Assembly: GCF_004102045.2 (NCBI RefSeq)
Contig: NZ_CP029684.2
Coordinates: forward strand, 62,001-126,000
Length of the DNA stretch: 64,000 nt
Origin: Oenococcus sicerae
GTDB taxonomy: Bacteria > Bacillota > Bacilli > Lactobacillales > Lactobacillaceae
Direction of reading: 5' to 3'
Shown one piece after another: positions 11,975 to 55,558 of this stretch (positions are counted from its first letter, which is position 1; the number at the start of each line of letters is the position of its first letter). A model generated the notes under the pieces. The model made no database searches. It was not told where the DNA came from and saw only the letters and a program-made list of their open reading frames with translations. The position numbers were made by a program, and so were the translations under genes.

Positions 11975-12064
11975 TGGAGATTGAGGGATTCGAACCCTCG
12001 CGTCGGGATAAACCGGCCTACACCCTTAGCAAGGGCGCCTCTTCAGCCTCTTGAGTAAATCTCC
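11975..12064 (-). tRNA. tRNA-Ser(GCU)
   Basis: 90-nt class II tRNA with a long variable arm. The anticodon loop CTTGCTA gives GCU. The acceptor GGAGATT pairs with AATCTCC, the discriminator is A, and no CCA is encoded. It is the last gene of the cluster and is separated from the others by an internal terminator-like hairpin. Confidence 0.95.
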
Positions 12065-12106
12065 AGTTGATTAAATGACTTGATTAAATTATAAATAAGT
12101 CTTATC

Positions 12107-12155
12107 TAAACAAAAATCGGCAAGCAAACATCATATAAAATGCCTGCTTGCCGAT
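12107..12155 (-). terminator. terminator-like hairpin inside the tRNA cluster
   Basis: ATCGGCAAGCA (12116-12126) and TGCTTGCCGAT (12145-12155) are perfect 11-base arms around an 18-base loop. On the minus strand the stem is followed by TTTTGTTT. It separates tRNA-Ile(GAU) from tRNA-Ser(GCU) and could end most transcripts before the serine gene, or serve as a processing stem. Confidence 0.7.
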
Positions 12156-12228
12156 GGACCATCCAGGACTCGGACCTGGGACCTCTGCGTTATCAACACA
12201 GCGCTCTAACCAACTGAGCTAATAGTCC
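12155..12228 (-). tRNA. tRNA-Ile(GAU)
   Basis: 74 nt cloverleaf. The anticodon loop TTGATAA gives GAU. T loop GGTCCGAGTCC. The discriminator is A and no CCA is encoded. Confidence 0.95.
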
Positions 12229-12230
12229 AA

Positions 12231-12301
12231 AGCGAATGACGGGAATCGGACCCGCATAGCCAGCTTGGAAGGCTGGAGCTCTACCACTGAGCTACATTCG
12301 C
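12231..12301 (-). tRNA. tRNA-Gly(UCC)
   Basis: 71 nt. Anticodon stem-loop CCAGC-CTTCCAA-GCTGG gives UCC. The discriminator is U and no CCA is encoded. Confidence 0.95.
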
Positions 12302-12321
12302 AGTGGGAGAAAAATCTCCAA

Positions 12322-12394
12322 TGGCGCGGGGCGGAATCGAACCGTCGACACAAGGAGCTTCAATCCTTTGCTCTACCAACTGAGCTACCGAGCC
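12322..12394 (-). tRNA. tRNA-Phe(GAA)
   Basis: 73 nt. The anticodon loop TTGAAGC gives GAA. Acceptor GGCTCGG pairs with CCGCGCC, including a G-U pair. The discriminator is A and no CCA is encoded. Confidence 0.93.
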
Positions 12395-12424
12395 AATCCT
12401 AACTGCATCGATATTCCTACCGAC

Positions 12425-12499
12425 CGGTCCCAGCGGGGTTCGAACCCGCGATCTCCTCCGTGACAGGGAGGCGTCCTAGACCAGCTAGACCATGGAACC
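12425..12499 (-). tRNA. tRNA-Asp(GUC)
   Basis: 75 nt. Anticodon stem-loop CCTCC-CTGTCAC-GGAGG gives GUC. The discriminator is G, as expected for Asp. No CCA is encoded. Confidence 0.95.
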
Positions 12500-12556
12500 T
12501 CTTGAATATTCGCTATGTAATAGCCAAACATTCAGGGTCGGTCACAAAGTGACCTA

Positions 12557-12630
12557 TTGCGGGGGCTGGATTTGAACCAACGACCTTCAGGTTATGGGCC
12601 TGACGAGCTACCAGACTGCTCTACCCCGCG
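12557..12630 (-). tRNA. initiator tRNA-fMet(CAU)
   Basis: 74 nt. The C1:A72 mismatch in CGCGGGG/CCCCGCA and the AGTCTGGTA D loop identify the initiator. Anticodon stem-loop is TCAGG-CCCATAA-CCTGA. Pairs 31:39 and 30:40 are G-C, but 29:41 is A-U, whereas bacterial initiators normally have three G-C pairs there. No CCA is encoded. Confidence 0.95.
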
Positions 12631-12656
12631 ATAATATTAAATTTGCCTTTCGGCAA

Positions 12657-12746
12657 TGGAGAATAGAGGATTTGAACCTCTGCGCCGGTTTCCCGACCTG
12701 ACGGTTTTCAAGACCGTTCCCTTCAGCCAGACTTGGGTAATTCTCC
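12657..12746 (-). tRNA. tRNA-Ser(UGA)
   Basis: 90 nt, long variable arm. Anticodon stem-loop ACGGT-CTTGAAA-ACCGT gives UGA. Acceptor GGAGAAT/ATTCTCC, discriminator A, no CCA encoded. Confidence 0.95.
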
Positions 12747-12768
12747 AGATAACTTCCATCGGCCAAAA

Positions 12769-12842
12769 TGGACCCTGCTGGACTCGAACCAGCGACCGAA
12801 CGGTTATGAGCCGCTTGCTCTAACCAACTGAGCTAAAGGTCC
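12769..12842 (-). tRNA. tRNA with CAU anticodon, probably tRNA-Ile2 (lysidine)
   Basis: 74 nt. The body (GGACCTTTAGCTCAGTTGGT and anticodon loop CTCATAA) resembles Bacillus tRNA-Ile(CAU), whose C34 TilS converts to lysidine to read AUA. An elongator Met assignment cannot be ruled out from sequence alone, but the next CAU gene fits Met better. Confidence 0.75.
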
Positions 12843-12855
12843 TCATTCGAGCCAA

Positions 12856-12929
12856 TCGCGGCGGGGGGTATCGAACCCTCGACCTCCCGGGTATGAACCG
12901 GACGCTCTAGCCAGCTGAGCTACACCGCG
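12856..12929 (-). tRNA. elongator tRNA-Met(CAU)
   Basis: 74 nt. The body (CGGTGTAGCTCAGCTGGCTA, anticodon loop TTCATAC) matches Bacillus elongator tRNA-Met. Acceptor CGCGGTG/CGCCGCG, discriminator A, no CCA encoded. Confidence 0.85.
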
Positions 12930-12950
12930 ATCAATTGAGCATACGCCCAA

Positions 12951-13024
12951 TCGGGACAACTGGATTCGAACCAGCGACCCCCTGGTCCCAAACCAGGTGC
13001 TCTACCAAACTGAGCTATGTCCCG
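12951..13024 (-). tRNA. tRNA-Pro(UGG)
   Basis: 74 nt. Anticodon stem-loop CCTGG-TTTGGGA-CCAGG gives UGG. Acceptor CGGGACA/TGTCCCG, no CCA encoded. Confidence 0.95.
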
Positions 13025-13088
13025 AGTCAATCTGCTCAGTACACAAATAATTACTTAATTGTACTCAGACGGTCAATTACTTGACCCA

Positions 13089-13162
13089 TGCACCATGTAG
13101 GAGTCGAACCTACAACCTCCTGATTCGTAGTCAGACGCTCTATCCAATTGCGCTAATGGTGC
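13089..13162 (-). tRNA. tRNA-Arg(ACG)
   Basis: 74 nt. Anticodon loop CTACGAA gives ACG, to be edited to ICG by TadA. Acceptor GCACCAT/ATGGTGC, no CCA encoded. Confidence 0.95.
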
Positions 13163-13226
13163 ATATTGCTGCTAACCAACCATGTTAAAAACGTGGATTA
13201 GTTGACTGTTTGCAAACTCACAAACA

Positions 13227-13310
13227 TGCCGGCGCCCGGGATCGAACCGGGACGGTATCACTACCGCAGGATTTTAAGTCCTGTGCGTCTGCCTATTCCG
13301 CCACGCCGGC
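13227..13310 (-). tRNA. tRNA-Leu(UAA)
   Basis: 84-nt class II tRNA. Anticodon stem-loop CAGGA-CTTAAAA-TCCTG gives UAA. No CCA encoded. Confidence 0.95.
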
Positions 13311-13335
13311 AACTAACTGCCACGATACGTGGCAA

Positions 13336-13407
13336 AGCGAACGGCGGGACTCGAACCCGTGACCCCCACCATGGCAAGGTGATGTTCTACCGCTGAACTA
13401 CGTTCGC
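13336..13407 (-). tRNA. tRNA-Gly(GCC)
   Basis: 72 nt. Anticodon stem-loop TCACC-TTGCCAT-GGTGG gives GCC. Discriminator U, no CCA encoded. Confidence 0.95.
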
Positions 13408-13427
13408 ATATTATTGAGGAAACCCTC

Positions 13428-13500
13428 TGCCGACTAGAGGGTTCGAACCTCCGACCCCCGCTTTACAAGAGCGGTGCTCTGCCAACTGAGCTAAGTCGGC
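13428..13500 (-). tRNA. tRNA-Thr(UGU)
   Basis: 73 nt. Anticodon stem-loop CCGCT-CTTGTAA-AGCGG gives UGU. No CCA encoded. Confidence 0.95.
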
Positions 13501-13538
13501 GATACTAAGACCCTTTGGAAATGATTTCTCATTTCCAA

Positions 13539-13611
13539 TGGACGCTACAGGGATCGAACCTGTGACCTCCTGCTTGTAAGGCAGATGCTCTCCCAGCTGA
13601 GCTAAGCGTCC
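13539..13611 (-). tRNA. tRNA-Val(UAC)
   Basis: 73 nt, first gene of the cluster. Anticodon stem-loop TCTGC-CTTACAA-GCAGG gives UAC. No CCA encoded. Confidence 0.95.
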
Positions 13612-54118: not shown

Positions 54119-54154
54119 AAAAAGCCCTAGTCTTAATTGACTAGGGCTTTTTAT
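54119..54154. terminator. bidirectional terminator between prsA and rplT
   Basis: AAAAGCCCTAGTC-TTAATT-GACTAGGGCTTTTT, perfect arms. Confidence 0.92.
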
Positions 54155-54164
54155 GTAACAGCAT

Positions 54165-54758
54165 TTACTTAACTAATGCAAGTAAATCAGCTTTTTTAGC
54201 ACTGGCAGTATACTTAATGCTATTCGCATCAAGATAAGCCTTAATTGCAGCAACAGTAGAAGCTGCTGTTGGTTTCTCAACCACAGCTACTGCTGGTTCA
54301 GCAACAGTTTTTTTGCCAGGTTCAAGTACAAGTGGTTTTGCACCACCATTGTCAACACGCGCTATTTTAACATCATTATCTAATGTAGGTGCCTTACGCA
54401 AAGGTGCTGAAACTTGTTTTTTCGCAGCTTCAGCAAGACTTGAAAAAGTTGTAAAATCAGTGATCGCCAATTCCGCCAACATTTTTCTATTCAGATCAAT
54501 GCCGGCCAGCTTTAAACCATGCATTAACTGAGAATAAGAGATGCCATTCATGCGACTTGCCGCGTTGATACGCGCAATCCATAATTTACGGTAATCGCGT
54601 TTAACATTCTTGCGGTCACGATAAGAATACAGATATGATTTCCAAACCTGTTGCTTAGCAACTTTAAAATTAATATGACGTTGGCCACGGTAGCCTTTGG
54701 CCAACTTGATGATTTTCTTACGACGAATACGTGTAACGTTCGTTCCTTTAACTCGCAT
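54165..54758 (-). CDS. rplT: ribosomal protein bL20 with C-terminal HeH/LEM-like extension
   Basis: 197 residues against about 118 for normal bL20. Residues 1-117 are a standard bL20 ([59 protein letters not shown]). A Pro/Ala/Val-rich linker (118-165) leads to [20 protein letters not shown] and ADLLALVK (167-197), which matches the helix-extended-loop-helix (HeH) motif of the SAP/LEM type found in phage and termination proteins. The frame is continuous, so this is a genuine fusion. It is the last gene of the infC-rpmI-rplT operon. Confidence 0.92.
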
Positions 54759-54780: not shown

Positions 54781-54978
54781 TTATAGATTACTTAATATCT
54801 TTGCGTAGCGCTTAACATTAACTTTGTTCATCATAGCAGTTCCACGTAATTGGCGGCGCTGCTTCTTAGTTTTTCCATGAAAACGGTGGGAAGTAAATGC
54901 TTGAGCGGCTTTGAATCCACCTGAAGCAGTTTTCTTGAAACGCTTTGCTGCTGCGCGATTAGTCTTCATCTTTGGCAT
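54781..54978 (-). CDS. rpmI: ribosomal protein bL35
   Basis: 65 residues ([37 protein letters not shown]). AAAGGAG ribosome site within the end of infC; the start overlaps infC by 20 bases. Confidence 0.97.
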
Positions 54979-55558
54979 CTGTATTCTCCTTTATTTTGTT
55001 TTTCTTTTCGGATTGAGCTTTTTTAACAACATCTGGCTTAGGCGAAAGCAATAAGGACATCTGACGTCCTAGTAGCTGCGGCATCTGATCAATATTAGCT
55101 AACTCGCTCAATTGTTTAGCCATATTCAAAAGTACTTTACGGCCAACATCTTGATGAGTCATCATACGACCACGAAAACGCAAATTCAGTTTAACCTTAT
55201 TACCCGCTACCAGAAACTTTGTCGCCGCTTTCTTGCGTGTTTCAAAATCTCCTTCACCAATAACAGGACTTAATCGGACTTCTTTAGTTTGAACAATTAC
55301 TTGCTTTTTCTTGTTCTCACGAATTTTCTTTTGTTGCTCAAATTTAACTTTACCCCAGTCCATGATTCTAGCGACTGGTGGTTGAGCTTTCGCTTGTACA
55401 ATAACTAAATCCAGACTTCTTTGATTCGCGATTTTTTGAGCATCGCGAGTACTCATAACCTTTTGTGACCCGCTATCAATGAGCATCACTTCGTGGAAGT
55501 GAATATTTTCATTGACTAGATCAATTTGGCGCTTGGGCCGTTGCTGTGGTCTTGCTAT
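54959..55558 (-). CDS. infC: translation initiation factor IF-3 (AUA start)
   Basis: About 199 residues. The frame upstream of the first ATG continues with [19 protein letters not shown] and then [10 protein letters not shown], the normal IF-3 N-terminus, back to an ATA codon nine bases after GGAGG. Non-AUG starts are a hallmark of infC and let IF-3 repress its own translation. The C-domain has [18 protein letters not shown] and [13 protein letters not shown]. The tail ([17 protein letters not shown]) is longer than usual. Confidence 0.93.

Follow-up and report, generated by a model that had tools for sequence, protein, structure and literature searches.

Ribosomal proteins rank among the most conserved proteins. 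One of them, bL20, is an early assembly protein that in some species also acts as an autoregulator, repressing its own operon. Two NCBIfam models describe bL20 variants that carry a further domain at the C-terminus, PRK14537 (L20/unknown domain fusion) and 50S_L20_sunset, so a bL20 fusion as such is already known. The domain that concerns us here is HeH (PF12949), a relative of Ish1, SAP and LEM with an extended loop between two short helices. Of these relatives, SAP binds nucleic acid, contacting DNA near the start of helix 2, and LEM binds protein (BAF). HeH modules also occupy a C-terminal place in phages of lactic acid bacteria and streptococci. The FluMu prophage protein of PDB entry 2out, a small protein that we take to consist of two domains with a flexible linker between them, was reportedly proposed to bind nucleic acid; we found no paper on it in the open full-text literature. 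In eukaryotes and some actinobacteria, Ku, an old nucleic-acid protein, has likewise gained a small C-terminal HEH domain, perhaps on more than one occasion; the excerpt of PMC3056875 that describes this treats the HEH domain of Ku and, separately, archaeal L20a, and an excerpt of PMC8409312 places the HeH clan among translocating domains.

In the window, the whole stretch of 64,000 nucleotides of Oenococcus sicerae DNA that we analysed, an HeH module stands at the end of bL20. This location on a ribosomal protein distinguishes it from the family as otherwise described, from 2out and from Ku, which is a DNA repair protein. The initial annotation knew of no description of such a tail, and we likewise found no paper on an HeH tail of bL20 or bS16 in the open full-text literature, searched by title and abstract start (most subscription papers lie outside it).

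The bL20 gene and its tail

The bL20 gene is a single open reading frame on the minus strand (54165–54758), which starts with ATG and runs for 197 residues without an internal stop. The uninterrupted C-terminal extension proposed from the sequence alone is thus real, and because HeH stands on bL20 in all seven genomes of the genus, the frame of the tail is not a product of chance. Residues 1–118 (54405–54758) form the core, with Pfam PF00453 (Ribosomal_L20) matching residues 2–108 at 146 bits, and the protein far exceeds the equivalog cut-off of the NCBIfam model TIGR01032 rplT_bact (151.7 bits; cut-off 65.65). A linker predicted to be disordered from AlphaFold2 and pN/pS covers residues 119–161 (54276–54404), and the C-terminal HeH module with its KPT lead-in covers residues 162–197 (54168–54275), with PF12949 at residues 168–197. 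The limits first drawn for linker (118–165) and module (167–197) were correct to within a few residues. The stop codon, TAA, lies at 54165–54167 on the same strand.

The hairpin of an intrinsic terminator starts 12 bases beyond the stop codon (54119–54152, minus strand; a perfect 14-bp inverted repeat followed by a T run), and a gene end before the tail is ruled out, since this is the sole strong terminator on the coding strand and it lies 3′ of the tail. The terminator scan found two candidates against 0.9 expected; the one on the other strand is weak, with five pairs. Upstream on the minus strand lie rpmI (bL35; 54781–54978) and infC (IF3; 54959–55489 as listed, although its true start may be further upstream), both named from the sequence alone. 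At Rfam gathering thresholds the whole window gave tRNAs only, and therefore no L20 leader; 15 tRNA genes are clustered at 11975–13611 on the minus strand.

Assignment of the tail to HeH depends on how much of the protein is presented to the profile. PF12949 scores 25.7 bits on the whole protein, under its curated cut-off of 28.9, 27.4 bits with the last 80 residues, and 29.6 bits (E 5.7e-7) with the last 38, so that the tail alone passes the cut-off. The same match reaches 28.1 bits in a genome search, and scores on bL20 of relatives reach 41 bits. Several PHROGs families match the tail (best E 2.1e-10). A profile that we built from 20 ribosomal HeH modules, hereafter A1, gives 74 bits (E 2.2e-20) on the window module, a score that arises by construction because this module is the first row of the profile. 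The window protein falls under the cut-offs of both known fusion variants (136.7 of 187 for PRK14537 and 128.3 of 375 for 50S_L20_sunset), whose extra domains, judging by names and scores, probably differ from HeH.

AlphaFold2, run on the window protein with 33 aligned bL20 sequences, predicts helices at residues 169–178 and 189–194 with an extended loop between them (block means 77–82). Block means are 88–96 for core residues 31–110, 58–68 for residues 1–30, and 38–60 for linker residues 121–160; the overall pTM is 0.45, and therefore the relative position of core and head in the model carries no meaning. A like fold is predicted for the bS16 tail discussed below (helices 110–120 and 130–136, block means 62–76). 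In a structure search with the ribosomal HeH profile, 2out was the sole solved relative above noise (residues 93–120, E 4.7e-4); the tail alone matched no solved structure at E up to 10. Together, the profile, the predicted fold and this solved relative support the view that the tail is an HeH/LEM-like module. Of the broader HeH/SAP/LEM pattern in the initial annotation, the HeH part stood; the Pfam SAP and LEM models did not match the window protein at E up to 10, in searches where HMMER filters discard most weak matches. Among 18 bS16 sequences scanned, the FANC_SAP model matched three (best E 0.083).

Distribution, selection and history

How widely is the tail found, and on which proteins? 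We refer to genera by label: g1 is Oenococcus, the genus of the window, g17 is Leuconostoc, g19 is probably Weissella, and g2 is by inference Fructobacillus. In a family-wide survey of the length of rplT, a check that the initial annotation had advised for Leuconostocaceae, bL20 was found in 150 of 151 genomes from 40 genera, and frames of at least 182 residues occurred in g1 (six) and g19 (five) only, all others having 150 or fewer (these lengths may include a few residues 5′ of the start). Of 397 family genomes, 92 have an HeH match. Where loci of g2, g7, g8, g17 and g39 were read, the module stands at the C-terminus of a different ribosomal protein, bS16.

A scripted comparison of coordinates showed that HeH lies behind exactly one of bL20 and bS16, never both, in 69 of 69 genomes from seven genera. 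It is on bL20 in g1 (7 of 7) and g19 (25 of 25), 32 in all, and on bS16 in Leuconostoc and four related genera, here called the Leuconostoc group: g2 (13), g7 (2), g8 (1), g17 (19) and g39 (2), 37 in all. The 69 were chosen from genomes with some HeH match, and the listing does not show every match-free genome; all 27 genomes of these genera that had been drawn before any HeH search are among them. Frame lengths agree with a single open frame for module and ribosomal protein in 68 of the 69; genome G347, a draft of about 890 contigs, has a frame shift within the HeH module. The 18 scanned bS16 proteins, three of them tail-less g19 proteins added for comparison, contain S16 in every case and HeH in 15. 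Tail-less bS16 of g19 has 90 residues in the four proteins read, g1 bS16 frames have 96–105, and no HeH match lies behind bS16 in the g1 or g19 genomes among the 69 (one g19 genome, G373, gave no bS16 match).

The bL20 proteins read from the Leuconostoc group have 139 residues; their short final stretch, AATxExxVxV, corresponds in the alignment to the first part of the linkers of Oenococcus and g19. Searched at E 0.1, 20 loci gave no remnant HeH behind these genes (a few loci share a genome, and two, L099 and L100, have fewer than 100 bases downstream). In the related genus Periweissella, bL20 has 119 residues in four of four genomes and lacks this stretch; no remnant HeH lies behind it at E 0.1 in four loci, and no HeH match occurs anywhere in the four genomes, although the same search gave two matches in each of three Leuconostoc genomes. 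A1 matched three of 398 genomes of the class: that of the window and two from a different family of its order, where the matching frames have 57 and 116 residues. Of 398 genomes of the phylum it matched two, that of the window and one more, in a frame of 65 residues. Both samples were spread evenly across larger groups and apparently contain hardly any further genome of the seven genera; they therefore bound the spread outside the group only.

We considered whether the tail compensates for loss of the termination factor Rho. None of the 21 genomes tested, including seven that lack a ribosomal module, was found to have Rho, while 9 of 14 controls have it; the idea was rejected because the absence of Rho does not track the tail.

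Patterns of substitution set the head apart from the linker. In six Oenococcus bL20 sequences, pN/pS is 0.09 for the core, 0.44 for the linker and 0.26 for HeH; the corresponding values are 0.21, 0.61 and 0.22 in 12 g19 bL20 sequences and 0.16, 0.53 and 0.21 in 13 bS16 sequences of the Leuconostoc group (pairwise Nei–Gojobori proportions, uncorrected, with pS of 0.57–0.61 in HeH and so near saturation). Gap cells number zero in HeH in all three sets, and 78, 214 and 732 in the linkers of Oenococcus bL20, g19 bL20 and bS16, respectively. The HeH domain is under purifying selection without indels and the linker is far less constrained. This pattern, together with conservation in seven of seven genomes of the genus, rules out that the tail arose by chance or from a sequencing error; it is a real, selected HeH module, held on a flexible leash by one ribosomal protein per genome.

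These observations bear on a role away from the ribosome, in which the tail would tune the synthesis of its own protein or help that protein's assembly. The early assembly function of bL20 and its autoregulation in some species speak for such a role, but the Rfam matches in the window include no L20 leader and the same module sits on bS16, in the other subunit; we consider this explanation very improbable. The hint in the initial annotation at autoregulation of the bL20 operon is likewise weakened, because other genera carry the module on bS16.

How the two arrangements arose was approached with trees. In a tree of the RpoD core and DnaG from 40 genomes, the group with HeH on bS16 is one clade (100/100), and Oenococcus is joined with the Leuconostoc group (89/80) with g19 outside; long branches meet here and the join is not safe, though the N-terminal HeH on RpoD described below supports it. 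The bL20-HeH genomes are paraphyletic on this tree and the labels need two changes, as they would if bL20 had acquired the module once and bS16 had later taken it over. A history in which g1 and g19 each acquired it on bL20 independently, and the Leuconostoc group on bS16, takes one step more and is likewise possible. A tree of the HeH modules alone (35 columns, with two phage rows, L242 and L243, cut out of register) is too poorly resolved to show a single origin or a relocation: it rejects neither a single clade of all ribosomal modules (p-AU 0.26) nor one of both bL20 groups (p-AU 0.24).

Other carriers of the module

The module is also found on the main sigma factor, RpoD, where it is N-terminal, before region 1.1 (L205–L232, L306–L325). 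It is present in 5 of 5 g1 and 14 of 15 Leuconostoc-group genomes, and in 0 of 15 g19 genomes and 0 of 5 outgroups. A HeH protein of 430–460 residues was considered as trigger factor and rejected; it is RpoD. In one genome (G007:C8:82121-82204; L219, L317) the HeH before RpoD is out of frame with region 1.1, through a frameshift or an assembly error. The window's own genome has three proteins with HeH at E 0.001 or better, bL20, RpoD (L310, G000:C1:1517098-1517190) and a membrane protein for which hydropathy indicates three hydrophobic helices, and a fourth, partial match at E 0.07. A membrane protein of about 200 residues with a terminal HeH lies beside a frame read as rnc (L057:988-1593, L058:1003-1593, L064); for that of L057, Pfam gives HeH and a weak Ish1 match only, and NCBIfam gives none. 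A PspC-domain protein in G151, a metagenome-assembled genome of the Oenococcus genus, also ends in an HeH module (L065).

Such a set of carriers raises the idea that HeH heads bind each other, linking the ribosome to the HeH-bearing sigma factor (and hence RNA polymerase), to the membrane protein or to other ribosomes. The three HeH proteins of one genome would allow this, and 15 of the 18 scanned bS16 proteins (15 of which are tailed) weakly match the T4 endonuclease VII dimerisation domain (best E 5.2e-4). However, RpoD lacks the module in all 15 g19 genomes, yet bL20 keeps it there, so coupling to sigma cannot be the general role; moreover, sigma is normally released after initiation. We therefore hold head-to-head binding to be improbable.

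Viral sequences contain the module at 37 viral-contig loci and 81 phage-record loci, and one viral-contig module is 72% identical to that of the window over 36 residues, including the KPT lead-in and the final Lys. In the four phage records that we opened (L276–L279), the major capsid protein annotated in Lactobacillus phage KC5a ends in the module, in the same frame. In Leuconostoc phage phiMH1, Lactobacillus phage LF1 and Streptococcus phage Javan393 the module comes immediately 3′ of the capsid gene but in a different frame, where no gene is annotated. The out-of-frame arrangement is as for a frameshift extension. Other viral modules form the ends of small proteins of 94–109 residues, so capsid genes are not the sole viral carriers.

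Could the ribosomal tail then be a phage-derived passenger, a C-terminal module spread by recombination onto gene ends and tolerated there, or a decoy for the ligand of the capsid module? The close identity to a viral module, its place at or after the end of the capsid gene in four phage records and the presence of tails on several unrelated proteins suit this idea. The compact HEH domain of Ku is thought, according to an excerpt of PMC3056875, to have been recruited to its C-terminus more than once. However, all 69 genomes have retained the module, which is under purifying selection and free of indels, and it is always on exactly one ribosomal protein, as would not be expected of a random passenger; we regard this explanation as unlikely.

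Candidate ligands and biological meaning

The carrier belongs to the 50S subunit in some genera and to the 30S in others, the linker varies in length and sequence, the head is conserved and each genome has one. These features suggest a head that the ribosome needs to carry, though in no fixed position. Both carriers are exposed on the solvent side. The initial annotation had proposed that the tail could tether DNA, mRNA or a factor, and this is possible. The best explanation we can offer, tentatively and at somewhat less than even confidence, is a leashed docking module for the whole ribosome. The tail would stay on the assembled ribosome, where the linker would let the 30-residue helix-loop-helix head reach out and hold its ligand, as related SAP domains do. 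One head per particle would be needed, whichever subunit carries it, so the place of attachment would matter little, and the module may have come from a phage capsid tail. The tail could instead be clipped off, which would count against docking.

The ligand that we predict, with similarly guarded confidence, is nucleic acid, either nascent mRNA or DNA. Twelve columns are invariant among the 20 aligned modules (K2, P3, V9, K13, L16, S26, A27, K28, K29, L32, L33 and L35). The lysines at profile columns 13, 28 and 29, which correspond to K173, K188 and K189 of the window protein, are present in 20 of 20, and columns 28 and 29 lie near the start of helix 2. By analogy with SAP, these three lysines would favour nucleic-acid binding over LEM-like protein binding. 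In addition, since the module is common to the ribosome and to sigma, and so to polymerase, a shared ligand such as nucleic acid would fit. Other characteristics count against it: the net charge of the module is 0 to +4, and 0 or +1 in g19, which is weak for an electrostatic nucleic-acid binder, and the protein binding of LEM relatives and the weak dimerisation-domain match argue in the same direction.

The module might instead dock onto a protein, much as LEM binds BAF, bringing a nuclease, helicase, modification enzyme or membrane protein to the ribosome. The modest charge of its surface and its LEM relatives would agree with this, and the mean column identity of 79% among ribosomal modules would suit a specific interface; but capsid, membrane and sigma proteins carry the module too, so that either one shared partner or several would be needed. 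We consider a protein partner possible, though doubtful.

Docking to nucleic acid can be extended to the group as a whole. Exactly one leashed head per ribosome would have been kept while the carrier changed from bL20 to bS16, forming a whole-ribosome tether derived from a phage capsid module, and where the main sigma factor bears this head too, as it does in part of the group, it would mark a ligand common to ribosomes and polymerase that brings both onto one nucleic acid or scaffold in cells without Rho. We put this wider picture forward as a speculative and rather unlikely one.

What is new here is the HeH head on bL20 or bS16, fusions of bL20 to other domains being known already, and it suggests a previously undescribed tether for the translation machine. 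A selected extra domain found on different subunits in related genera, and always once, is a natural swap experiment, which argues that it is the head on the ribosome that counts and not its place. One small module thereby links the ribosome, the sigma factor and phage capsids, and makes what bacterial ribosomes hold besides mRNA directly testable in tractable food bacteria.
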